21,383 bases of DNA from Desulfobacteraceae bacterium (GTDB lineage: Bacteria > Desulfobacterota > Desulfobacteria > Desulfobacterales > Desulfobacteraceae): positions 1-21,383 of the forward strand of contig JAFLJU010000424.1 of assembly GCA_022712835.1 (NCBI GenBank), in the 5' to 3' direction. The notes under the pieces are model-generated. The model searched no databases. It was given only the letters and a program-made list of their open reading frames with translations, and was not told the origin of the DNA. Made by a program: the position numbers and the translations under genes. Every line of letters starts with the position of its first letter. The stretch's first letter is position 1. This document shows positions 1 to 20,296 of this stretch, piece after piece.

Positions 1-567
1 CGCCGCAACTTCAGGTTCTCCTGTCAGCAGATCTGGTTCTTCTGACAAAAGAGTGTCTGTTTCAAAATCCAGAGGGTTTATGTCCAGATCATCCGGATCT
101 GACAGTCCTGCTTTATATTCCGGTTCCTCTTCCAGGTCATATTCCGGAAGATTGATGGACATTTCGGTTAGTTCTTGTGGGTCTATATCGTGCTCTTCCA
201 ACTCGATTTCATTAAGTCCGGTTTCCACCAAGGCGATACCGTCAGAGAAAGGATACTCCTGGCCAACCTGGGTATCAAATCCGTCCAATTCCATTTCCGG
301 TGCAAGGGTGTCCTCTTTTTCTGATTCGGCAATGTAATTGCCCTCCCTGTCAAAGAGCAGGCTGCCGCTTAAATTGATATCAAAGTCCAGCCTGAAAGCA
401 ATTTTATTGTTGTGAACTACGATCTGTCCACCCTTTGAAGACAGGGCGGAAACAGCCATCCGCTCCTTTAGAATCTGTCGGACAGCATCCAGGTCCAGAT
501 CTTCCCGTACCGCTTCAATCAGATCTTTTTCGCCGTCTTCAATGACTTGCGGGTCTGTTATTTTCAT
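1..567 (-). CDS. Acidic protein of unknown function (C-terminus beyond window)
   Basis: The reading frame is open from an ATG at 567 to the window edge, giving 189 residues with no stop, so the gene is partial. A GAGG ribosome-binding site lies 8 bases before the ATG. The start is 14 bases after the stop of the receiver-domain fusion gene, so it is very probably the next gene of the same operon. Residues 1-90 look like a small folded domain (predicted helix, then strands around VVHNNKIAFRLDFDINLSGS). From about residue 90 onward the chain is very rich in Asp and Glu, with recurring short blocks such as DLEEEPEY and SDPDDLDINPLDFE, suggesting a long acidic, probably disordered segment. I do not recognise the family. 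Its position suggests a role with the ABC/receiver system, but that is inference only. Confidence 0.8.
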   Translation of the reverse strand, partial: MKITDPQVIEDGEKDLIEAVREDLDLDAVRQILKERMAVSALSSKGGQIVVHNNKIAFRLDFDINLSGSLLFDREGNYIAESEKEDTLAPEMELDGFDTQVGQEYPFSDGIALVETGLNEIELEEHDIDPQELTEMSINLPEYDLEEEPEYKAGLSDPDDLDINPLDFETDTLLSEEPDLLTGEPEVAA

Positions 568-581
568 GGATGATACCTCGT

Positions 582-1958
582 TTAAATATTGTATGCCTGA
601 TTGGCAAAACGGTTTTCGATGAATTTTTCAAGATCAATAATTTTACCGATTCCCATTTCGTCATGCATATACCGTTGAATCTTTTCCAGATCCTGGACTT
701 CGGGGTAGAGGCCGTCCCAACGGATGGCCTGGGGCTGTGAAAAAACATTTGTTAATACATCTGGATTCAGACCCATTTTGCCTTCCGGATCAAGAAACTT
801 GACGGCAATTTGTGCCGCCCGGTTTTTGTCATTTTCGATGTATTCTCCGGTTTCAATCATCAGGGAAACAAATTCCTGGGCCGCTTCCGGATGCTTCTGA
901 ATAAAATCTTCTTGCATGGCCACCACACAGCAGGGATGATTGTCCCAGCGGCTGGCTGAATAAAATTCCAGATTTCCGATGTTGTTAACGATGGCTTTTG
1001 TGGCCACGGGTTCTGCAACCATGAAGCCTGCAACATCCTCGTTCTCTTTCATTATTTCCGGCATTTTAATGGGGGGGACTACCTCAAATCGAACGTTTAT
1101 CGCTTTTTTGCCCGGCACACCTGGTTTTAAACCCAATTCCTTTAAAAATTTATGGGCCAGCATATGGTGGACAGACATTTTATGGGGGATATCAACCACC
1201 TTGTACTTATAAAAGCTCTGGAGGGAATCAAATCTTGGATCATAATGTCTGGACCTGACAAAGGTAGATCCGTTTTTATGGGCAAAAAGTACCAGTTTTA
1301 TGGGAGAATCATAGGCAAACAAGTCCATGGCGATTGGAGCCAAGACCAAGGCGCAGTCGATTTCTCCGTTTTCAAGACCTTCCTGGATGGGGTTCCATCC
1401 TCCCTTAAGTGTGGTGGTCAGGTCAAAATGTTGGGGTTCCACATCCCCGGATTCAATTCTGTGTTTGAGGGCACCCAGTGCAAGGTGATCGGTAATTTGA
1501 ATATGGGCCACGTTCAGTTCAACCCTGCCGCCGATGGTGCTTCTTTGTTTTTGGGTGGATTTAGCGGTTTCCATGCCGCCAGCAAAGGCTTGTTCAATAG
1601 CTTTGCCAATTTGCTCAGCATCAAATGGCTTAGGGACATGGCCGTTTCCACCGGCTTCTTTGATGTTTAACTGCTGGCCTTTGTCCGACTGGGCCGTGGC
1701 CATGATAAAGGGCAGGTTTTTGAATTCGTCGGTGGCCCGGAGTGCGATTAAAAATTCCAGTCCATCCATTGTGGGCATATTCCAGTCACTGACCACCAGA
1801 TCCGGCTTTTCAGCCTTTACTTTTTCAAGTCCGTCTGCACCGTTAACCGCCATGACAAGATTTGTATATCCGGCTTTGGCCAGGATTTGTTTGAACATCA
1901 TGCGCATGGTTCCCGAGTCATCGGCCACTACTATTTTTATGTTTGGATCTACCGCCAT
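582..1958 (-). CDS. CheY-like receiver domain fused to NrtA/SsuA-like substrate-binding domain
   Basis: This is a 458-residue two-domain protein with an AAGGAG site before its ATG. Residues 1-125 are a complete CheY-type receiver: acidic pair D13/D14, phospho-acceptor D58 in SDWNMPTMDG (very close to the E. coli CheY signature), T88 and K110 in the KPF motif. A short linker (about 126-144) leads to a NMT1/NrtA-type periplasmic-binding fold (about 145-450), with APIAMDLFA at 207-215, AEPVATKAI near 315 and a W-DNHPCC motif at 338-344. There is no signal peptide, so the binding domain should be cytoplasmic. It lies 44 bases after the permease gene of the same ABC operon. The domain calls are firm. 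The role, perhaps phosphorylation-dependent control of the transporter or coupling of ligand sensing to chemotaxis, is inferred. This architecture is unusual. Confidence 0.93.
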   Translation of the reverse strand: MAVDPNIKIVVADDSGTMRMMFKQILAKAGYTNLVMAVNGADGLEKVKAEKPDLVVSDWNMPTMDGLEFLIALRATDEFKNLPFIMATAQSDKGQQLNIKEAGGNGHVPKPFDAEQIGKAIEQAFAGGMETAKSTQKQRSTIGGRVELNVAHIQITDHLALGALKHRIESGDVEPQHFDLTTTLKGGWNPIQEGLENGEIDCALVLAPIAMDLFAYDSPIKLVLFAHKNGSTFVRSRHYDPRFDSLQSFYKYKVVDIPHKMSVHHMLAHKFLKELGLKPGVPGKKAINVRFEVVPPIKMPEIMKENEDVAGFMVAEPVATKAIVNNIGNLEFYSASRWDNHPCCVVAMQEDFIQKHPEAAQEFVSLMIETGEYIENDKNRAAQIAVKFLDPEGKMGLNPDVLTNVFSQPQAIRWDGLYPEVQDLEKIQRYMHDEMGIGKIIDLEKFIENRFANQAYNI

Positions 1959-2002: not shown

Positions 2003-2836
2003 TTATTCATTCTGGTACCAATTGATTTTATGCTGGAGTTTCTGGAAAACCCGGTCCAGAATAAAGCCTAAAATTCCAATGGCAATGATCATTGCCATGA
2101 GCTTATCATACTCCATGGTATCCCTTGCGTCATTGATAAGATAGCCAAGTCCTGAGGAAACACCTAAAAATTCCGCCGGAACCAGAACAATCCATGCCAC
2201 CCCTAACGCCAGCCTCAGGCTGGTCAGCATGTGGGGCAGGGACGATGGAATGATAATAGTCCGGATCAGTTGGTAATCGCTTGCCCCTTGGTTTAACGCC
2301 ATTTTTATCCATTGGGGATTAATATTTAAAACGCCAATCGTTGTATTGAGTATTATAGGACAAACGGTGGCCATTACAATCAAAAAATAAACCGCGGACT
2401 CAAAACTTGCAAATAAAAGCAGGGCAATGGGCATCCAGGACAGAGGACTGATCATTCGGATAAACTGGAGGGGTGAGTAGGATAGCCCCCGGAGTTTTGG
2501 ATAAAAGCCAATAATAATTCCCAGGGGAAATCCGATGATCGACGCTATAAAGATGCCCACAAAAATTCGCCGAAGACTTGCAAATACAGAAGACCAGAAA
2601 CGGCTGTCCTGGAATGCATCCATAAGAGCTGTCAGGGTGGGACCGGGTAAAAAACCGTTAAACAGGGAAAACTTTGGCTGGGTAAAAATGATCCCTGAGA
2701 CCAGCATCCAACCTCCTGCAAACAGTAAAAGTCCTATTATTTCATATTTCCAGCCGAATTCTAAACGGCCGAAAACAGCATTTAATCCTACTTGTCTGGA
2801 ACTTCGATATACAAATTTGTTAATTGATTTCAACAA
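2003..2836 (-). CDS. ABC transporter permease, NitT/TauT (SsuC/NrtB) type
   Basis: This 277-residue inner-membrane permease has about six hydrophobic segments (roughly 31-51, 90-111, 128-145, 148-168, 205-225, 245-262). The cytoplasmic EAA loop that docks on the ATPase is at about 180-201 (NQGASDYQLIRTIIIPSSLP). Family members import nitrate, sulfonates, taurine, bicarbonate or thiamine precursors with a soluble binding protein and a dimeric ATPase. The start is a TTG at 2836 with AGGGA five bases upstream, and no in-frame ATG occurs near it. The first 17 bases overlap the end of the upstream binding-protein gene, which points to translational coupling. The substrate cannot be read from the sequence. 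Confidence 0.92.
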   Translation of the reverse strand: MLKSINKFVYRSSRQVGLNAVFGRLEFGWKYEIIGLLLFAGGWMLVSGIIFTQPKFSLFNGFLPGPTLTALMDAFQDSRFWSSVFASLRRIFVGIFIASIIGFPLGIIIGFYPKLRGLSYSPLQFIRMISPLSWMPIALLLFASFESAVYFLIVMATVCPIILNTTIGVLNINPQWIKMALNQGASDYQLIRTIIIPSSLPHMLTSLRLALGVAWIVLVPAEFLGVSSGLGYLINDARDTMEYDKLMAMIIAIGILGFILDRVFQKLQHKINWYQNE

Positions 2837-3983
2837 TCTCTTCCCTTGAAAATGGTGTTTCTATATTACACTTACAAAATTGATGAATTCCCCCCATCTC
2901 ATCCATGGCTTTTCTGACAAACCGGTCATCAACCAATTGTTTTGTTGCATTACCCGCATCCAGGGTAGCAAGGAAATCTGTGTTCCCTTCGACCCGGGTG
3001 TGTTTCATCTGCTCCACAATAAAGCGGGTGGCAGAAGGGAAGGGAAAGGGTTGGAAACCAATTCTTTCCACATCCCATTGGGGGTGGGTAAGTTCTGAGG
3101 CCAACGGTTTTTCGAAAACCCGTGCCAGGACCTCTTGGGGAACCGGAAGGTATCCTTCTCCATCCCGGCTGAGAAGATGGGCGGTTTCCCTTGGGTTTTT
3201 CTGGCACCAGGCCTGGGCCCGGACAATGGCATTCATGGCTTTTTGTACCACAATAGGATTTTGATTGATAAAGGGTTCATTGGCCACAATAACGCAACAG
3301 GGATGATTTTTCCAGATATCTCCGGAAAATCTCATGATCCGGGCATTAAATTTTATCTGGGCCAGGGCATTAAAGGGGTCTGCCACAATAAAGGCATCGA
3401 TTCTTTTTCCCAGAAGGGCCGTGGGCATGTCCGGCGGCGATAGAATAAACAGATTGACTTCATTTGGGGCAAGTTTAGCCGATTGGGGTTTAATCACCGG
3501 CACAAGTCCCTGGGTCCGGATGCCCAACTGCAAAATCAGGTTGTGCATGGAGTACCAGGAAGGCACCGCCACCTGCTTTCCTGCCAAATCTGAAAATTTG
3601 TAGATTCCGGAATCTCCCCTTACGGTTATGGCACTGCCATTGGTGTGGTCCCAGGCCAGAACTTTTATCGGAACCTTTTGTTTAAACCGCATCCACACCG
3701 GGATCGGAAAGAGCATGTGGGTTAAGTTAAATTTTTGGGTCAAAAAGGACTCGGTTAATATTTTCCAGGATCTGACCATGACCGGTCTTTCAACCTTAAG
3801 TCCTTCCTGGGCAAAATAGCCAAGCCCGTGGGCCACCAGAAGCGGGGTCGCATCTGTTATGGGCAGGTATCCAAGCTTTAAGGGGGTAGGCTGAGCAAAT
3901 GCGGGGATTGCCCCGGGTAAAACCAATCCGGAACAGGCTGCTGCTGCCGTTTTTAAAAATTTTCGTCGTGACAAGGTGTCCAT
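2820..3983 (-). CDS. Tat-exported ABC substrate-binding protein, NitT/TauT type
   Basis: This 387-residue protein begins with a clear twin-arginine signal (SRRKFLK at 5-11), a hydrophobic stretch and a likely signal peptidase I site after AFA at residues 28-30. It should therefore be exported folded to the periplasm. The mature part is a NMT1/NrtA/SsuA-like binding fold: PLKLGYLPITDATPLLVA at 34-51, ADPFNALAQI near 201-210 and IWKNHPCC at 223-230. The WxxHPCC motif is shared with the two signal-less homologues in this operon. A G-rich ribosome site (GGGGG) lies just before the ATG. It follows the ATPase gene by 21 bases and overlaps the permease gene, so it should deliver ligand to that permease. 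Tat export hints at a bound cofactor or cytoplasmic folding. The ligand is unknown. Confidence 0.93.
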   Translation of the reverse strand: MDTLSRRKFLKTAAAACSGLVLPGAIPAFAQPTPLKLGYLPITDATPLLVAHGLGYFAQEGLKVERPVMVRSWKILTESFLTQKFNLTHMLFPIPVWMRFKQKVPIKVLAWDHTNGSAITVRGDSGIYKFSDLAGKQVAVPSWYSMHNLILQLGIRTQGLVPVIKPQSAKLAPNEVNLFILSPPDMPTALLGKRIDAFIVADPFNALAQIKFNARIMRFSGDIWKNHPCCVIVANEPFINQNPIVVQKAMNAIVRAQAWCQKNPRETAHLLSRDGEGYLPVPQEVLARVFEKPLASELTHPQWDVERIGFQPFPFPSATRFIVEQMKHTRVEGNTDFLATLDAGNATKQLVDDRFVRKAMDEMGGIHQFCKCNIETPFSREEIVEIN

Positions 3984-4004: not shown

Positions 4005-4772
4005 TTAAAGCATGCTTCGTTTGGCCAAGTAGGCATTTTTGAATCTGTTCAGGATTTTAACTCGGATTTCCTTGAACCTTGGATTATTTCGGTCCCTTGG
4101 ATAGTCTTCGTTGATTTCAAAGATATCCGTGATGTTTGCCGGCTCCCCTGCTAAAAGAATGATTTTATTGCCCATCCGTATGGCCTCGTCAATGTCATGG
4201 GTAACAAACACGGCTGTAAATTTTTCTGATAGCCATAAATTGACCAGTTCTTCCTGGATATGGGCCTGGGTAAAGGTATCCAAAGAGGCAAAGGGTTCAT
4301 CCAGGAGAAGTGCTTTGGGTAGCCCCACCAGGGCCCGGGCAAGACAAACCCGCTGGGCCATCCCCAGGGACAACTGGCTGGGTTTGGATTCGGAAAATCC
4401 GGCCAGTCCCATGATTTCAAGAAATTGATTTACCCGATAGTCGAGTTCTTTGGTATCGCCCCTGATTTTACAGCCATAGGCGACGTTCTCCTTTACCGTG
4501 AGCCAGGGAATAAGGGCCGGCTGTTGAAAAAGCATGGATCGCGAGGGGTGGATCCCCTTGATTTCCTGGCCGTCCACATGGATGCTGCCGGAGCTTGGTT
4601 GTTCAAGTCCTGCCAGAAGGTTTAAAAGAGTGGTTTTCCCGCACCCGGACTCCCCCAGTATGATCACAAAATCACCCGGGTCAATGGAAAAGGAAATATC
4701 TTTGAGTACTATATGGTCTGCCCTTTTAGCTCGTTTGTAGCTCTTGGAGATGCGTTCAATGTCAATTTTCAC
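4005..4772 (-). CDS. ABC transporter ATP-binding protein, NrtD/SsuB type
   Basis: This 255-residue ATPase powers the neighbouring permease. Visible motifs are Walker A GESGCGKTT at about 40-48, Q-loop FQQPALIPW at 82-90, signature LSLGMAQR at 134-141, Walker B LLLDEP at 155-160 with D158/E159, and the H-loop THD at 191-193. The signature has Leu where most family members have the first Gly (LSGGM or LSGGQ), a noticeable deviation. The start is GTG at 4772, which overlaps the TGA of the preceding gene as GTGA, so translation is likely coupled. The protein stops soon after the nucleotide-binding domain. The NrtA-like regulatory domain that cyanobacterial NrtC carries as a C-terminal fusion is here a separate gene immediately upstream. 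Confidence 0.94.
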   Translation of the reverse strand: MKIDIERISKSYKRAKRADHIVLKDISFSIDPGDFVIILGESGCGKTTLLNLLAGLEQPSSGSIHVDGQEIKGIHPSRSMLFQQPALIPWLTVKENVAYGCKIRGDTKELDYRVNQFLEIMGLAGFSESKPSQLSLGMAQRVCLARALVGLPKALLLDEPFASLDTFTQAHIQEELVNLWLSEKFTAVFVTHDIDEAIRMGNKIILLAGEPANITDIFEINEDYPRDRNNPRFKEIRVKILNRFKNAYLAKRSML

Positions 4773-5743
4773 AATTTCATTTCCGATATGGCTTTTGTCG
4801 CATGGGAAAACTTAAGAAAGGCGTCCAGATCAATGGCTTGGGGCATCACCCCCATGGTGTCTGTCATATAGGTTTGAATGATATCCAACGCGTCCTTGTC
4901 CGGGAATAATTTCGACGGGGTAAAACTTATCCCACTATTTAAAAAGGCCTCTTTGACAATCCCCTGTTCCTGACCCAGGAAATTTTGGGCAAAATTAAGG
5001 GTTTGTTCGTCTATTTGGTTTTTTTTAAGTTGCGTATCCAGGGCTGTGGCAGACTGAAAAAAGTGGTGAACCAGTTCTTCTACTGCTTTTTTTTGGGAGG
5101 TTTCCAACTTGTTTCGCACAACGAATCCGCAACAGGGATGATCCTTCCACAAGCTGTCCGAGGTACAGAACTTGTCTGCTTCCCCATTGGCTATGGCCTG
5201 GCTGCCATAGGGCTCTGGAGCCATATAAGCTGCAATATCAATGTCTTGGTCATTTTCAAGCATTTGGGGCATGAGAAAAGGACTGACGGCTTCCGTCGTG
5301 ATATCATTGGGATCTGATTTAGAGGGAGCGTAAGATTTAAGAGAGAAGCCCGCTGCGGTAAGAAGCTTATGGAGCAACAGGTGTTGAACAGACAAATTGC
5401 TGGGAATCAAAATGGTTTTTCCCTGTAAATCAACCAGGCTTTTTATACGGGCCTGCCTGTTTCTCACCATCAAACTACCGGATCTGTGAACAAACATCAG
5501 CATGGAAATATCAAGGCCCGAGGCAAATAGATCCATCGCCAGGGGAGCTGTTATAAACGCACCGTGGATATCGCCATTTCTTAAGTCGTCACAGATTTGT
5601 CCCCATGAATTCATGGGGATGTTTTCAAGGGTGGCGTGCTGTAATCGATCACCATTCGATTGAAGGCGGAAAACAGAGTATCCTAAAATCAGGTGATCAA
5701 TAATTTTTAAATGTCCGACGCGGATATTTATTTTTTTTTCCAT
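4769..5743 (-). CDS. Signal-less NrtA/SsuA-like substrate-binding domain protein
   Basis: This 324-residue protein is the first gene of the ABC operon, with GAGG five bases before its ATG. It has a NMT1/NrtA-type binding fold but starts directly with the first strand (KINIRVGHLKIIDHL) and has neither a Sec nor a Tat signal, so it should stay in the cytoplasm. It resembles the binding domain of the receiver-fusion protein more than the exported protein: APLAMDLFA at 66-74 against APIAMDLFA, and similar C-termini (YMTDTMGV against YMHDEMGI). LWKDHPCC is at 198-205. By analogy with the NrtA-like domain of cyanobacterial NrtC, it may sense an internal ligand and gate the ATPase whose gene it overlaps by four bases. 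That role is inference. Confidence 0.9.
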   Translation of the reverse strand: MEKKINIRVGHLKIIDHLILGYSVFRLQSNGDRLQHATLENIPMNSWGQICDDLRNGDIHGAFITAPLAMDLFASGLDISMLMFVHRSGSLMVRNRQARIKSLVDLQGKTILIPSNLSVQHLLLHKLLTAAGFSLKSYAPSKSDPNDITTEAVSPFLMPQMLENDQDIDIAAYMAPEPYGSQAIANGEADKFCTSDSLWKDHPCCGFVVRNKLETSQKKAVEELVHHFFQSATALDTQLKKNQIDEQTLNFAQNFLGQEQGIVKEAFLNSGISFTPSKLFPDKDALDIIQTYMTDTMGVMPQAIDLDAFLKFSHATKAISEMKL

Positions 5744-5920: not shown

Positions 5921-6433
5921 ATGACTCATGATTCTGAAAAACCTGTTACCAGAGATTATTTCCTAAAGCCGGGATATATATATTTGCCTGAAAAACCCAC
6001 CGTGATCTCCACGGTGCTGGGGTCATCGGTCTCTGTGTGTCTTTTTGATAAAACCCTCAAGGCAGGGGGGATGAATCATTTTTTGTTTCCGGTGGTTGAT
6101 ACCGGTAAAACGACAACTTCCCTGTACGGCAATGTCGCTGTTTTGACCCTGATCCGGATGATGCGGGGAAACGGATCTGATCTGTCAAAACTGGAAGCCC
6201 AGATTTTTGGTGGGGCCTACAATCCGTCTGAATCTTCCCGGGATATCGGGCAGGACAATGTCAACGCTGCCAGGATGATTTTACATCAGAAGAAAATAAA
6301 AATTGTTTCAGAGGATGTGGGGGGGGAACTGGGGCGAAAAATTGTTTTTAATACCCTGAACAATGAAATATTAACCCTGAAGGTGGATCGGCTCAGGGAG
6401 TCTGACTGGTATCCCTATGAAGGAGATCGTTAA
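5921..6433 (+). CDS. cheD: CheD-like protein with Ser at the catalytic Cys position
   Basis: This 170-residue protein has the CheD fold signatures: STVLGSSVSVCLFD at 30-43, GGMNHFLFP at 49-57 and a later IFGGAYNP segment. CheD deamidates glutamines of chemoreceptors and exchanges with CheC in the adaptation system. In the characterised Thermotoga enzyme the catalytic residues are Thr21, Cys27 and His44. Here Thr31 and His53 are kept with the same Cys-to-His spacing of 17, but the Cys position is Ser36 (codon TCG). The nearby Cys40 matches a non-catalytic position. The protein may be inactive as a deamidase or work as a binding protein. It is divergent from the ABC/receiver operon and ends four bases into the convergent ubiB-like gene. 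No clear ribosome site precedes the ATG, and an in-frame stop at 5906 rules out a longer start. Confidence 0.88.
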   Translation: MTHDSEKPVTRDYFLKPGYIYLPEKPTVISTVLGSSVSVCLFDKTLKAGGMNHFLFPVVDTGKTTTSLYGNVAVLTLIRMMRGNGSDLSKLEAQIFGGAYNPSESSRDIGQDNVNAARMILHQKKIKIVSEDVGGELGRKIVFNTLNNEILTLKVDRLRESDWYPYEGDR

Positions 6434-13759: not shown

Positions 13760-16700
13760 ATGACGCAAAAGTTGACACCCAACAAAGATCTTGCAGGTGC
13801 GGTCATGGTTCTTGGTGGCGGTATCGCAGGAATGCAGTCTGCCATTGATTTGGCAAATTCAGGGTACTATGTTTATCTGGTTGAAAAATCATATGCCATC
13901 GGCGGCATGATGGCCCGGTTGGACAAGACATTTCCAACCAATGACTGTACCATGTGAGTTATCTCACCCAAACTGGTCGAGGTCGGCCGGCATCTGAACA
14001 TTGAGTTGTTAACAAATACGGAACTTTTGGAACTGGATGGTGAACAGGGAAATTTCACGGCCAAGGTCAAAGAGAGCCCACGGTTTGTTGATATATCAAA
14101 ATGTACCTCCTGCGGGGAATGTACCAAAGTCTGTCCCGTTGATACCCCCAGCGAACACAACGAGGCTCTGGCGCCTCGAAAAGCCATCTTTAAACAATAT
14201 GAACAGGCCATACCCGGTGCTTATGGAATCTCTAAAAGATCCATTGCTCCCTGTAAGGCTACCTGTCCAGCACACGTGTCCATCCAGGGTTTTATCGCCC
14301 TCATGGGCCAGGGAAAATACCATGAAGCCTTAAAGCTGTTTAAACAGGAACACCCCTTTCCCGGTTCCTGCGGAAGGGTCTGCCACCATCCCTGTGAAGC
14401 TATCTGCACCAGGGGAGACGCCGATCAGCCCCTGGCCATCCAATACCTCCATCGGTATCTTTCTGAGCTGGATCTGGAAAGTGCAGAGCCCTGGCTTCCG
14501 GAACTTGCTGAAAAACGAGACGAAAAAATTGCCATTGTGGGGTCCGGCCCCGCAGGGCTGACGGCCGCCTATTACCTGGCTCAAAAAGGGTATGGGGTCA
14601 CCATATTTGAAAAACTGCCGGTGAAGGGCGGGATGATGGCCGTGGGGATTCCAGAATACCGGCTGCCCAAGGCAGAATTGGGAAAAGAGATTGACCTGAT
14701 TGAACGTCTGGGGGTCCAGATCAAAACTTCGGTTGAATTTGGAAAGGATATCACCCTTGAAAGCCTGAAAAAAGAAGGGTTTGCCACCGTGTTCATGGCA
14801 ACCGGTCTCCACGGTTCCAGGGGGCTTGGGGTTAAGGGTGAAGATCTTGACGGGGTTCTTAAGGGAACCAATTTCCTAAGAGATGCCGCCATGGGCAAGG
14901 CTGATAAAATTGCCGGCAAGGTGGTGGTTATTGGCGGCGGGAATGTGGCCGTTGATGTGGCCCTGACAGCCAGGCGTCTGGGGTCCGACGATGTTACCAT
15001 GGTCTGTCTGGAAAAAAGAGACGAAATGCCGGCCTGGGATTATGAAATTGAAGACGCCCTGGAAGAAAAGGTAAAAATTGTGAATAGCCTGGGCCCCATC
15101 GGTTTTCACGGAACCAATGGAAAAGTCGAAGAGGTGGCATTCCAGGAATGTACGGCGGTTTTTGATGAAAACGGAAGGTTTAATCCTCAGTTTGATGATT
15201 GCAAGCTCAATTCCCACGAAGCCGACATTGTGATCGTGGCCATCGGCCAGTCCGGAGAATTGGGGTTTGCTGAAAAAGAAGGGATCACCTTGACCCCGCC
15301 TGGCGGGTATAAAGCAGATCCTGACACCTTGCAAACGCCCATTGACTGGGTATTTGCCGGTGGAGACGCTTTTTACGGACCCAAATCGGTTGTGGATGCC
15401 GTCGCAAGTGGTAAGACGGCTGCCGAAAGTATGCACAGGTTTATAAACGGTCTGGATCTCACCGAAGGCCGGGAAAAAAGTTATGAATTTGAAAAACCCG
15501 AAATTATTAATGTTCCTAAGCTTCCCCGGGTAATACCTGAAAAGATCAGCGTGGAAGAGAGGGAAGGCAATTTTGCGGAAGTGACCTTAAGCCTTGCCAA
15601 GGAGGCCATTGACAGGGAAGCTGCCCGGTGTCTGTCCTGCGGTATCTGTTCGGAATGTTACCAATGTGTGGAGGTCTGTCTGGCAGGGGCGGTGGATCAC
15701 GACCAGCAGCCAAAGTTCCGGGATTTGAATGTGGGGTCGGTGATTATGACCACCGGTGCCACCACCTTTGATCCGTCGGGCTTAGATGATATTTATATGT
15801 ACAAGCGGTCTAAAAATGTCATGACCTCCCTTGAGTTTGAGCGGATTCTTTCCGCCGGGGGCCCCACCATGGGACATCTGGTCCGGCCTTCCGATGAAAA
15901 AGAACCGGAAAAGATTGCCTGGCTCCAGTGTATCGGCTCCAGGGATACCAACCGGTGCGGAAACGGCTATTGTTCCTCGGTGTGCTGTATGTATGCCATC
16001 AAGGATGCCATGATTGCCAAGGAGCATTCGGAGAAAGAGCTGGATGCGGCCATCTTTAATATGGATATGCGGACATTCGGCAAGGATTATGAAAAATATT
16101 ATAATCGGGCGGCTGACCAGGATGGGGTGAGATTTGTTAAGTCCCGGATCCATTCCGTGGTCGAAGAGCCGGGCACGGATAATCTGATTTTAAATTATGT
16201 CGACGAAGAAGGGGTGATGCATAGGGAAGTTTTTGACATGGTGATCCTGTCCGTGGGACTGACCATTCCCAAGGCGAGTGTGGACCTTGCCAACCGCATC
16301 GGGGTGGATCTGGACAAGTATAATTTTGTCAAGACCAGCACCTTTAATCCCCTGTTAACCTCCAGGCCCGGGGTCTTTGTGTCCGGGACCTTCCAGGGAC
16401 CCAAGGATATCCCCTCCTCCATCACCGAGGCGTCGGGAGCCGCAGGGGCGGCAGGCATCCATCTGGCAGCAGCCCGCCATACCTTGACAAAGACGGTTTC
16501 CATGCCCGAAGAAAGGGATGTACTGGGGGAAGAACCCAGGATTGGGGTTTTTGTCTGTAAATGCGGGATTAACATTGCCGGGGTCATTGATGTGGAGGAG
16601 GTGGCAAATTATACCAATAATCTTCCCAATGTGGTCTATACCGGTGAGAATTTGTTCACCTGTTCCCAGGATACCCAGGTATCCATCAAGGAGCTCATAG

Positions 16701-18205
16701 ATAAACACCAGCTCAACCGGGTGGTGGTGGCTTCCTGCACCCCCAAAACCCATGAAGGAATATTCATGGATACCCTGGAGGAAGCGGGTTTAAATAAGTA
16801 CTTGTTTGAAATGGCCAATATCAGAAACCAGGACGCCTGGATGCATTTCCATGAACCGGAACAGGCAACCGCCAAGGCCAAGGATTTGATTCGCATGGCC
16901 GTGGCAAGAGTCTCCACCCTGGGGCCCTTGCATGACAAACGGATCTCCATTATTGATAAAGCCCTGGTGGTGGGCGGTGGAATTGCTGGCATGACGGCTG
17001 CCAAAGGCCTTGCCGACCAGGGATTCCATGTGACTATGGTTGAAAAACAGGAAAGTTTGGGCGGCCTTGGAGGAACTCTCCATCACACCATTGAAGGGGA
17101 TGATATTCAAGGGTATGTGGCTGGGCTTGTTCGGGAAATAGAAAACCATGAAAACATTGATGTGTATAAACAGGCCTTGATTGTCGGGTTTACCGGTTAC
17201 AAAGGTAATTTTAACACCGAGGTTCTCATCGGTCCTTCCATGAAGCAACTAAAAATTGACCATGGGGTGATGATTGTTGCCACCGGCGCCACTGAATACA
17301 AACCAACTGAATTTTTATACAATGAAAGCGATTCCGTTGTGACCCAGCTGGAACTTGCCGATATGATTGAAGAAGGTCAGGCTAAGGAGCTGGACCGGGT
17401 GGTCATGATCCAGTGTGTGGGATCCAGAAATGAGGACAACCCCAATTGTTCCCGGATCTGCTGTCAGAATGCCGTGAAAAATGCCATTGCCATCAAGGAA
17501 AAAACGCCTGAAACCGATGTGTTCATCCTTTACCGCGACATGCGAATGTACAGTATGCTCGAGGAGTTTTACACAAAGGCCAGGAACATGGGCGTGATCT
17601 TTTCCCGGTTTGACAAGGAGCATCCGCCAATTGTGGAAAAAGGAGATGACGGCAAGGTCAGTGTCACCTTCAGGGATCATGTTCTGGGCCAAAAACTTGA
17701 AGCCAGTGCCGATTTGGTCGTCTTGAGTGCCGGGGTTACAGCCAGTGATACGGAAGAACTTTCCAGTATTCTCAAGACCCAGCGGAATCCCGAAGGGTTT
17801 TTCATGGAGGCCCATGTTAAGCTTCGGCCTGTTGATGCAGGAACCGAAGGGGTCTTTATTTGTGGTACGGCCCACGGGCCCAAGTTGATAAGTGAAACCA
17901 TTGCCCAGGCAATGGCCGCAGCTTCCCGGGCCACCACATTTCTTGCCCAGGAATATTTGACACTGTCTGCTGTCACTGCGGAAGTGAACCAGGTAAATTG
18001 CGCCTCCTGCCTGGTTTGTGTCAGGTCTTGTCCCTACAATGTGCCGGTGATCGATGAGATGGGGGTTTCCTTCATCGATCCGGCTCTTTGCCAGGGATGC
18101 GGGGTGTGTGCATCTGAATGCCCGGCAAAAGCCATTAAACTGAATTGGTATGAAGATGATTCATTGCTCAGCAAGGTGGATGCTTTGCTGGAGGGGGTAC
18201 TATGA
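13760..18205 (+). CDS. hdrA: Selenocysteine-containing HdrA-GltD-HdrA fusion (heterodisulfide reductase subunit A-like)
   Basis: This 1481-residue flavin/iron-sulfur protein reads through an in-frame UGA at 13955-13957 as Sec66, in [18 protein letters not shown], where HdrA homologues usually have Cys. The frame continues open on both sides and a SECIS-like hairpin follows. Domain order: HdrA FAD site (GGGIAG, 19-24), ferredoxin-like [11 protein letters not shown] (about 114-125), GltD-like insert (about 160-560) with its own Cys-rich start, FAD site VGSGPAG and NAD(P) site GGGNVAVD, continuation of the first HdrA with [13 protein letters not shown] (about 624), then a second HdrA ([11 protein letters not shown] about 930, FAD site about 1063) and two [4Fe-4S] clusters at the C-terminus. 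The ATG at 13760 follows AGGAGG. It overlaps mvhD by four bases. Its likely role is electron bifurcation between NAD(P)H, ferredoxin and the MetVF enzyme. Confidence 0.93.
13955..13990 (+). promoter_or_regulatory. UGA Sec codon and SECIS-like hairpin of hdrA
   Basis: After the UGA (13955-13957) and a 15-base gap, CTGGTC (13973-13978) can pair as RNA with GGCCGG (13985-13990), including two G-U pairs, around the loop GAGGTC. Position and a loop carrying GGU match the known bacterial SECIS layout, which recruits SelB within the coding region. No selA, selB, selC or selD gene is in the window. Confidence 0.7.
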
Positions 18206-18657
18206 TAAAGGAATTTGAACCGGTTATTCTGGCATTTTGCTGTAATTTCTGAGGGTATTCAGCCGCGGACCTGGCAGGTTCCATGAGATTGAAGATCCCA
18301 ACGAGTTTTAGAATTGTTCGCCTTCCCTGCACGGGCAAGATTGATATTATTCATATATTGAGGGCCTTTGAAAAAGGGGCGGACGGCCTCTATGTGGTGG
18401 GGTGTATGGAAGGAGATTGTCATTTTAACCAGGGCAATTTCAGGGCGCGCAAGCGGGTTGAACAGGCCGCAAAAATCCTGGACCAGGTGGGGGTTGGCGG
18501 AGAACGGGTGAAAATGTATAACCTGTCTTCGGGAGAAGGTCCCTTGTTTGCCCAGTATTCCATTGAAATGGTCAATAAGATAAAAGAAATGGGCCCAAAT
18601 CCCGTTCGCCTGGCCAAACAGAAAAAGGCAAAACAGAAAAAGGCAACCACAGCTTGA
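18202..18657 (+). CDS. mvhD: MvhD/FlpD-family subunit with predicted selenocysteine
   Basis: This 151-residue iron-sulfur protein carries electrons between a partner oxidoreductase and HdrA through a [2Fe-2S] cluster. Starting at the ATG that overlaps the hdrA stop (ATGA), the frame reads FCCNF then UGA at 18250-18252, then GYSAADLAGSMR. Family members have FCCNWCxYxxADLAG here, so the UGA replaces a conserved Cys and is read as Sec17. Other likely ligands are C13, C43, C68 and C73 (VGCMEGDCHF). Methanogen homologues (VhuD) are known selenoproteins. Starting instead at the later ATG (18283) would delete this conserved segment. The C-terminus is an unusual Lys/Gln-rich tail (KQKKAKQKKATTA). 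It is part of the hdrA-mvhD-metV-metF operon. Confidence 0.93.
18250..18282 (+). promoter_or_regulatory. UGA Sec codon and SECIS-like hairpin of mvhD
   Basis: Fourteen bases after the UGA (18250-18252), GGACCT (18267-18272) pairs with AGGTTCC (18276-18282) with one bulged U in the 3' arm and a short GGC loop. A single bulged U in the stem is also a feature of the well-studied E. coli fdhF SECIS. Spacing agrees with the hdrA element. Confidence 0.6.
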
Positions 18658-18698
18658 TATGGTTTCAATCATTAAACCGCTGAATATGAGGTAAGCTT

Positions 18699-19367
18699 AT
18701 GATAATAGCAGAAAAAAAACCCATTGAAGAAATTATTGAAGAAGTACGGGATTTTGACCGTATTCTGATCCTGGGATGCAACGAGTGCGTGACGGTTTGT
18801 GAGGCCGGTGGTAAAAAAGAGGTGGAGGTGCTGGCCTCGGCATTGAGAATGTATTTTATGACCCAGGGCGCAGAAAAGGTCATCACCGAGTACACCATGG
18901 AACGTCAGTGCGATCATGAGTATCTGGAAGAAATTCGAAAAGATATTGATGAGTATGATGCCATTGTCTCACTGGCCTGTGGGGTAGGGGTTCAGTTTGC
19001 AGCGGAAAAATATCTGACCACCCCCTTGTTGCCCGGGGTGAACACCATCTGTCTGGGTGCCAATGAAGACCGGGGGTTGTGGACGGAACGCTGTCAGGCC
19101 TGCGGCTCCTGTGTGCTGGCAAGAACCGGTGGCATCTGCCCTGTTTCCAGGTGTGCCAAACGGGTGCTCAACGGTCCCTGCGGCGGATCCACCGACGGTA
19201 AATGCGAGCTGGGTCCGGATACAGACTGTGCCTGGCAGCTCATTGTGGACCGGCTCAAAGCCCTTGACAAAATGGATGATTATGAGAAAGTTGCCCCCAT
19301 CAAAGACTGGTCCACAGACCGGGCAGGCGGCCCCAGAACCGTAACCAGGGAGGATGTAAACATATGA
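18699..19367 (+). CDS. metV: MetV: MTHFR C-terminal-domain zinc/iron-sulfur protein
   Basis: This 222-residue Cys-rich protein belongs to the methylene-tetrahydrofolate reductase C-terminal-domain family, called MetV in acetogens. It forms a complex with MetF and supplies metal centres for electron transfer. The N-terminal part has GCNECVTVCEAGGKKEVEVLA (C27, C30, C34). The C-terminal part has a dense Cys cluster (C132, C135, C138, C147, C152, C161, C169, C177) around CQACGSCVL and NGPCGGSTDGKCELG. GAGG sits seven bases before the ATG. It follows mvhD by 41 bases and overlaps metF by ATGA. The order hdrA-mvhD-metV-metF points to an Hdr-linked MTHFR complex like the one studied in Moorella thermoacetica. 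Confidence 0.92.
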   Translation: MIIAEKKPIEEIIEEVRDFDRILILGCNECVTVCEAGGKKEVEVLASALRMYFMTQGAEKVITEYTMERQCDHEYLEEIRKDIDEYDAIVSLACGVGVQFAAEKYLTTPLLPGVNTICLGANEDRGLWTERCQACGSCVLARTGGICPVSRCAKRVLNGPCGGSTDGKCELGPDTDCAWQLIVDRLKALDKMDDYEKVAPIKDWSTDRAGGPRTVTREDVNI

Positions 19368-20296
19368 GCGAGTTCGTAAGTGCCGGCAGGCTGGAAAGAG
19401 TAATGAAAGCAGGACACCTGGGCGTTACCTCGGAATGTGGTCCGCCACGGGGAAGTGATCCTGAAGAGGTGCGCAAAAAAGGCTTGATGATCAAAGATTA
19501 TGTGGATGCCATCAATGTCACGGACAACCAGACCGCCATGACACGGATGTCTTCCCTTGCCGCCTGTGTTCATTTAAAACTTTTGGGCATAGAACCCGTG
19601 CTCCAGATGGTGACAAGAGACAGAAACAGGGTGGCCCTCCAGAGCGATATTTTAGGGGCTGCCTCTTTTGATATTCCCAATATGTTGTGTCTGTCCGGTG
19701 ACCACCAGAGTTTTGGGGATTGTGCCCAGGGTCAGAATGTTCATGACCTGGACAGTATGCAATTGGTCCAGACCGTCCGCCACATGCGCGATGAAGGAAA
19801 ATTTCTGGGGGGAGATGACATTAAGCGTCCGCCCAAAATATTTGTAGGGGCTGCTGCCAATCCCTTTGCCGATCCCTTTGAGATTCGGGTGCCAAGGCTT
19901 GCCAAAAAAATTGCCTGCGGGGCGGAATTTATCCAGACCCAGTGTGTCTACAATATTGACAAGTTTAAGGAATGGATGAAACGGGCAGTGGACAGAGGAC
20001 TCCATGAAAAAACCTTTATCATGCCCGGCATGACCCCCATGAAATCGGTGGGTATGGCCAAATACATGAAGAACAAGGTGCCGGGAATGGATGTGCCCGA
20101 TGAGATCATAGCAAGGCTTGCCGGTGTTGAAAAGGGAAAACAGGCCCAGGAAGGCATTGATATTTGTGTGGAGCACATCCTGGAGCTCAAGGAAGTTACA
20201 GGTGTTGCAGGATTCCACATCATGGCCATTGAGTGGGAGGAGAAAGTGCCGGAGATCGTTGAAAGAAGCGGCCTCTACCCACGACCGGTATTATAA
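19364..20296 (+). CDS. metF: Methylenetetrahydrofolate reductase
   Basis: This 310-residue MetF-family TIM-barrel flavoprotein interconverts methylene- and methyl-tetrahydrofolate in the methyl branch of the Wood-Ljungdahl pathway. Recognisable parts are TSECGPPRGSD at 22-32 (E24 matches the general acid of E. coli MetF), NVTDNQTAMTRMSS, VTRDRNR and LSGDH, then ATHF-type barrel segments such as AANPFADPFE and AEFIQTQCVYNI. The length is near the usual 290-300. A GGAGG site precedes the ATG, which overlaps the metV stop. In sulfate reducers that oxidise acetate completely the enzyme may run in the oxidative direction. The neighbouring hdrA and mvhD genes suggest that electrons pass through an Hdr-type flavin centre rather than directly from NADH. 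Confidence 0.95.
   Translation: MSEFVSAGRLERVMKAGHLGVTSECGPPRGSDPEEVRKKGLMIKDYVDAINVTDNQTAMTRMSSLAACVHLKLLGIEPVLQMVTRDRNRVALQSDILGAASFDIPNMLCLSGDHQSFGDCAQGQNVHDLDSMQLVQTVRHMRDEGKFLGGDDIKRPPKIFVGAAANPFADPFEIRVPRLAKKIACGAEFIQTQCVYNIDKFKEWMKRAVDRGLHEKTFIMPGMTPMKSVGMAKYMKNKVPGMDVPDEIIARLAGVEKGKQAQEGIDICVEHILELKEVTGVAGFHIMAIEWEEKVPEIVERSGLYPRPVL

Follow-up and report, generated by a model that had tools for sequence, protein, structure and literature searches.

The gene at positions 582 to 1958 on the minus strand of a 21,383-nucleotide stretch of DNA from a Desulfobacteraceae bacterium (contig JAFLJU010000424.1 of assembly GCA_022712835.1, the whole of which we call the window) encodes a 458-residue protein in which a CheY-type receiver (REC) is joined to a binding domain of the kind found in the substrate-binding proteins (SBPs) of ABC importers. 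On the basis of sequence and fold comparisons this REC-SBP fusion is a genuine cytoplasmic protein made of a receiver and an NMT1_2 binding domain, and the fusion is a widespread family and no accident. We give an even chance to the proposal that it senses a ligand in the cytoplasm on behalf of a chemosensory or phosphorelay pathway that is tied to an ABC importer, and gene context suggests that through it an imported nutrient and a phosphorylation signal act on each other.

The receiver extends over residues 9-121 (1596 to 1934, minus strand), as assigned by Pfam, and reading its residues establishes the presence of the acidic pair D13/D14, the phospho-acceptor D58, T88 and K110; it shares 37% identity with CheY3. 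Residues 145-458 (585 to 1526, minus strand) form the NMT1_2 or NrtA-type binding domain, identified by both profile and fold match, the NMT1_2 match itself covering residues 147-383. Among the solved structures nearest to this domain, by fold and by sequence comparison, are the regulatory domains of CmpC (sequence match, E 3.6e-12) and NrtC (E 8e-11). No export signal is seen in the fusion, the receiver starting at residue 9 and a TAT-signal match being absent, unlike in the neighboring protein encoded at 2820 to 3983; no signal predictor was run. An earlier note, made from the window sequence by itself, had described a complete receiver fused to an NrtA-like fold lacking an export signal, and Pfam, the fold match and the position of the receiver confirm this. 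Its view that such binding domains normally act outside the membrane leaves out a known role inside cells, since the regulatory domain of NrtC and CmpC is cytoplasmic and has the same fold, and for the same reason its statement that the architecture is without precedent was too strong. Database names for the architecture exist, such as 'multifunctional response regulator receiver/nitrate/sulfonate/bicarbonate ABC transporter', and no paper on REC-SBP or REC-SBP-CheW proteins turned up in the open-access literature that was searched.

Occurrence of the same fusion in many independent genomes rules out an assembly error or a chance event. A draw of 395 genomes from the phylum contained it in 20 (E<=1e-80), with 20 of the 21 matches running on into a CheW domain, and it was found as well in 5 of 82 genomes from the phylum of a KSB1 relative and in 2 of 149 from the class of a Melioribacteraceae relative, where all seven matches carry CheW. 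When a CheW form was used as the query, 119 of the 120 homologues listed, from a total of 1384, had all three Pfam domains, in a list that leans to CheW forms because the query is one itself. The order to which genome G005 belongs gave 77 fusion matches in 49 of 242 genomes (E<=1e-100), a few of them with internal stops, from at most four scored candidates per genome; open frames are of window-like length (460-517 residues) in 34 and of 604-1212 residues in 43, and wide flanks were available for part of the 77. The architectures comprise REC-SBP, REC-SBP-CheW, REC-SBP-REC-SBP-CheW, REC-SBP-HATPase-STAS and a single REC-SBP-SpoIIE. The tandem form, two REC-SBP units followed by CheW in a chain of approximately 1200 residues, is found at L068 (8790-12407) and L167 (start 7968, plus strand, 1199 residues), the architecture of L167 and that of the SpoIIE form coming from phmmer only. 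Family labels at the loci derive from single-sequence phmmer searches; 50 proteins encoded elsewhere than in the window were also checked with Pfam. Separate-gene homologues, which the earlier note had named as a sign of error, did not appear as a split version at any of the loci examined, which were not searched for them as such.

Residues of 62 fusions were compared with those of 18 exported SBPs that carry a twin-arginine (Tat) signal, after removal of one duplicate (L105_335_tat). D14, D58, T88 and K110 are present in every one of the 62 fusions, with D or E at position 13. In the binding domain I155, D157, W188, H227, G230, S231, P258 and S262, together with W338, H341, P342, C343 and C344 (W338xxHPCC), are invariant in all 62 fusions and in all 18 Tat SBPs, the HPCC motif itself (residues 341-344, 927 to 938, minus strand) lying in the presumed cleft and being common to the exported SBP. 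From the fold and the predicted secondary structure these positions would line the cleft. Both the phospho-acceptor and the presumed pocket, whose conservation the earlier note had left to be checked, are retained. It is likely, judging from these shared residues, that the SBP domain of the fusion and the exported SBP of the neighboring importer share a ligand class. Other positions set the fusions apart. Q154 is constant across them and is not one of the most frequent residues of the other groups compared. H158 and H259, which none of the 18 Tat SBPs has, are likewise constant, and some of the stand-alone cytoplasmic SBPs and individual exported relatives have them too.

The fusion lies in a minus-strand operon that reads, in order, stand-alone SBP, ATPase, Tat SBP, permease, REC-SBP and the first part of an unnamed gene, with a widest intergenic gap of 44 bases. 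Pfam identifies a stand-alone NMT1_2 binding protein with no visible export signal, presumably cytoplasmic (SBPcyt, 4769 to 5743), a 255-residue ABC ATPase that has no regulatory C-terminal domain (4005 to 4772), the exported NMT1_2 binding protein with its twin-arginine signal (2820 to 3983) and the importer permease (BPD_transp_1, 2003 to 2836), all on the minus strand. SBPcyt keeps HPCC and has neither H259 nor H264, both of which the fusion carries. In all 19 relatives of the window clade (L001-L018 and L027) the unnamed gene adjoins the fusion, as do one or more importer genes, some of these loci ending at contig ends. An Hpt gene follows downstream in 14 of the 19, with Pfam confirming all five that were tested; in the window this gene would lie beyond the end and is known from relatives only. 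On the other side a cheD gene, divergent from the operon (5921 to 6433, plus strand, Pfam E 8.1e-20), is found beside the operon in 11 of the 14 relatives with enough sequence, L010, L014 and L015 being those that do not have it, and L001, L005, L012, L016 and L017 stop short of its expected place.

Gene context depends on architecture. It was scored for 100 distinct fusions in extended loci (50 CheW forms, 39 short forms, 8 HATPase-STAS forms, 1 SpoIIE form and 2 other long forms), a set that is not random, several loci having been picked because importer or che genes were visible in a short first view; sequence extended a full 8 kb to either side in 21 of the 39 short, 27 of the 50 CheW and 3 of the 8 HATPase-STAS forms. 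The importer chain accompanies 19 of the 39 short forms, and L015 also has the genes, missed by the 200-base gap rule. CheA directly adjoins the fusion in 8 of 8 HATPase-STAS loci from 6 genomes (Pfam for two), with a REC-SpoIIE phosphatase gene near in 7 of 8 and CheW, methyl-accepting chemotaxis protein (MCP) or CheB genes in several. Of the 50 CheW forms, 4 have CheA within 8 kb, 15 have one or more of the scored che genes and 5 have the importer chain; the counts for CheA and for the importer chain, given the selection of loci, are not rates. REC-SBP-CheW genes stand within che clusters at L106 and L181. The connection to a CheA pathway that the earlier note proposed is therefore upheld at the level of gene context, relatives either carrying CheW or adjoining CheA.

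Three further observations concern these loci. At L067, L069, L159-L163 and L172 partner-switching and chemosensory parts are neighbors in one cluster. REC-SBP-CheW, CheX and a stand-alone SBP are consecutive at L115 and L121 (Pfam for L115). At L105 and L107 (genomes G202 and G247; Pfam for L105/G202 only) a different ABC importer, one that uses an exported NMT1_2 SBP, is found no more than 10 kb from REC-SBP-CheW.

The importer and the fusion also occur together at the level of whole genomes. In the order of G005 the importer SBP (E<=1e-60) is present in 28 of 242 genomes, 27 of which hold the fusion, compared with 22 of the 214 genomes in which this SBP was not found (Fisher p 2.7e-21, with no correction for kinship or genome size); the sole importer genome without a fusion is G721, a 1.7-Mb assembly. 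Fusion and importer genes are within 10 kb of one another in 11 of the 27 genomes, and linkage was not found in the other 16, some of whose assemblies are broken. The 395-genome draw contained the importer SBP in 2 genomes, one with the fusion. Together with an operon shared in two clades, the co-occurrence in 27 of 28 genomes bears out, again as gene context, the link to the ABC transporter that had been proposed.

Phylogenetic trees were calculated from thinned sets of 71 rows (SBP domains), 48 (CheW order), 46 (fusions) and 15 (exported SBPs). Both L068 units were counted as short in the residue comparison, the 71-row tree and the first fusion tree, though Pfam shows CheW, and were relabeled as CheW for the 48-row tree and the context count. 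The short form of the window falls within a clade of short forms (first fusion tree, 29 rows; 46-row tree, 12 rows; support 100/100 in both), and importer-linked rows form a clade of their own within the short clade (20 and 5 rows, respectively). Five CheW forms with the importer chain and L171, whose contig ends after the ATPase gene, make up another clade (100/99), nested among CheW forms. Importer-linked fusions thus fall in two separate clades, and linkage to the same importer family therefore exists in two lineages; those of G829, G848, G709, G659 and G787 were left off the tree. The exported SBPs of both lineages are related, with the branching among them largely open in the 15-row tree. 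A comparison of CheW loss in the window clade with CheW gain elsewhere did not separate the two in the 48-row tree (approximately unbiased test, p-AU 0.467). In the 46-row tree a second clade without CheW groups with the HATPase-STAS forms, and CheW has therefore probably changed more than once. The SBP domains of the fusions come together in a single clade (41 rows, support 100/100) that excludes the Tat SBPs, the Tat and some cytoplasmic branches being long, and the idea that the domain is a recent copy of the neighboring Tat SBP is unsupported, the two lying on different branches. SBPcyt of the window falls in a seven-member clade (96/99) of operon genes of this kind, also apart from the Tat SBPs, with long branches and fast evolution.

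Several well-known proteins serve as points of comparison. Like CheY the fusion has the receiver fold with all phosphorylation residues, and unlike CheY it adds a second domain of ligand-binding type. Unlike exported NMT1_2 proteins such as NrtA, CmpA and 3un6 of S. aureus, it has no export signal and is joined to a receiver. It resembles CheV in its receiver, in the CheW of many relatives and in the association of part of the loci with CheA or MCP genes; it differs in that the REC-first REC-SBP-CheW relatives have the reverse of the CheV domain order with an SBP domain in the middle, and in that the window protein has no CheW. Excerpts of PMC12691637 describe CheV as a CheW-like domain fused to a receiver, and a phosphorylation mimic of it as binding one tested receptor and not another. 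With NrtC and CmpC of the cyanobacterial nitrate and bicarbonate importers the fusion has in common a cytoplasmic domain of the NrtA/CmpA fold that is tied to an ABC importer. There the regulatory domain is part of the ATPase protein and has links to nitrate, PII or SbtB, that of CmpC being reported to block the nucleotide-binding domains at low nitrate and that of NrtC to mediate the action of PII (PMC13249358, a 2026 review, in excerpt); in the window the SBP domain resides on a separate REC protein and the ATPase carries the ATPase domain only. By analogy, the REC-SBP family may be regarded as combining two ideas, cytoplasmic regulation of the NrtC/CmpC type and CheV.

As a ligand sensor the fusion would work as follows. 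Its SBP domain would bind the cargo of the importer, or a similar compound, in the cytoplasm. The receiver would obtain its phosphoryl group from the operon's Hpt protein in the window clade and from CheA in forms with CheW or HATPase-STAS. Ligand binding and phosphorylation would each affect the other, and the internal nutrient pool could in this way tune chemosensory or phosphorelay output. The CheW forms would deliver this output by coupling to arrays of receptors and CheA, much like a CheV to which a nutrient sensor has been added. For the window protein the operon Hpt is the more likely phosphodonor than a nearby CheA, since no CheA has been found near the fusion in its clade.

A number of results weigh against a sensor of this kind. 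Pfam finds no CheW in the window fusion, so that it does not have the CheV combination of receiver and CheW in one protein, and 34 of the 77 matches in the order of G005 are too short for CheW. CheA is within 8 kb of 0 of the 39 short forms and MCP of 2 (18 of the 39 without full flanks), so that the window's own copy is tied to CheA through its relatives only. No scored che gene lies within 8 kb of 35 of the 50 CheW forms, and of the 20 CheW loci from the unselected phylum draw (L104-L123) 1 has CheA, 6 have any scored che gene and none has the importer chain over this distance. This importer is missing from 22 of the 49 fusion genomes in the order of G005, and its SBP is present in 1 of the 20 fusion genomes of the phylum draw; the co-occurrence figure itself carries no correction for kinship or genome size. 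No ligand is known for the SBP domain.

The chief alternative, not far behind in likelihood, is a phosphorylation-controlled importer brake, whereby REC-SBP acts in trans on the ATPase or permease like a detached NrtC/CmpC regulatory domain, with ligand and phosphorylation determining whether it blocks the nucleotide-binding domains. This would fit well with an importer operon shared in two separate clades, with an importer that is seldom without the fusion, with a window ATPase that has no regulatory domain of its own and with the CmpC/NrtC regulatory domains among the nearest solved relatives, which respond to nitrate or PII in acting on the transporter (excerpts of PMC13249358). The brake fits poorly with how common the fusion is in genomes that do not have this importer, it leaves the CheW and CheA association unexplained, and SBPcyt of the same operon would serve equally well as a detached brake. 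The earlier note had allowed for both directions, phosphorylation controlling the transporter and ligand binding modulating a CheA-linked pathway, and the choice between them cannot come from sequence.

Two other roles have less to recommend them. CheV-like proteins have been discussed as phosphate sinks, and the receiver might similarly drain phosphoryl groups while the SBP fold provides a ligand-free protein-binding surface, for which the fast evolution of the SBPcyt paralogue and the missing H259 and H264 of its window copy can be cited; we consider this improbable, as a mere surface needs none of the cleft residues that are invariant in 62 of 62 fusions and the same as in the exported SBP. 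The SBP domain has fold similarity also to Thi5 and to the MqnA-MqnD enzymes, and that it is itself a Thi5- or MqnA/D-like enzyme controlled by the receiver appears very improbable.

The remaining features of the window can be dealt with briefly. The unnamed gene next in the operon (1 to 567, minus strand) is represented by its first 189 codons, the window end cutting the rest. Its family has 267 homologues, with no Pfam match in the two full-length members tested, and consists of a conserved N-terminal region of about 90 residues, a long acidic linker and, at the C terminus, a motif resembling ILKESREFWEQKK (alignment A2); a predicted structure was poor (predicted local distance difference test, pLDDT, 58) and was not used. 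A member lies within 8 kb of 25 of the 39 short REC-SBP genes as opposed to 0 of the 50 CheW forms. In three Desulfoluna loci the match of this downstream gene is weak, and their SBPcyt is doubtful as well, that of L022 having no NMT1_2 match by Pfam. Further stand-alone SBPs without a visible signal, separate paralogues, are present elsewhere in G001, G002 and G003. At 14006 to 20296 (plus strand) translations read by eye point to a long HdrA-like protein, MvhD and genes related to methylenetetrahydrofolate reductase.

How chemosensory kinases respond to nutrients already in the cell is only partly known. We propose tentatively, with somewhat less than even confidence, that the cytoplasmic REC-SBP sensors constitute an undescribed class of intracellular chemosensor in which the binding domain of an importer has been re-used on a CheY/CheV chassis with interchangeable outputs. 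If this is true, these outputs would be CheW coupling, HATPase-STAS partner switching beside CheA and an Hpt phosphorelay, and the cargo delivered by an ABC importer would be read against a kinase signal within one protein. The fusion also offers a phosphorylatable, trans-acting counterpart to the NrtC/CmpC regulatory domain. With a binding domain, a receiver and often CheW in one chain, accompanying one importer family, the coupling would be testable with purified proteins.
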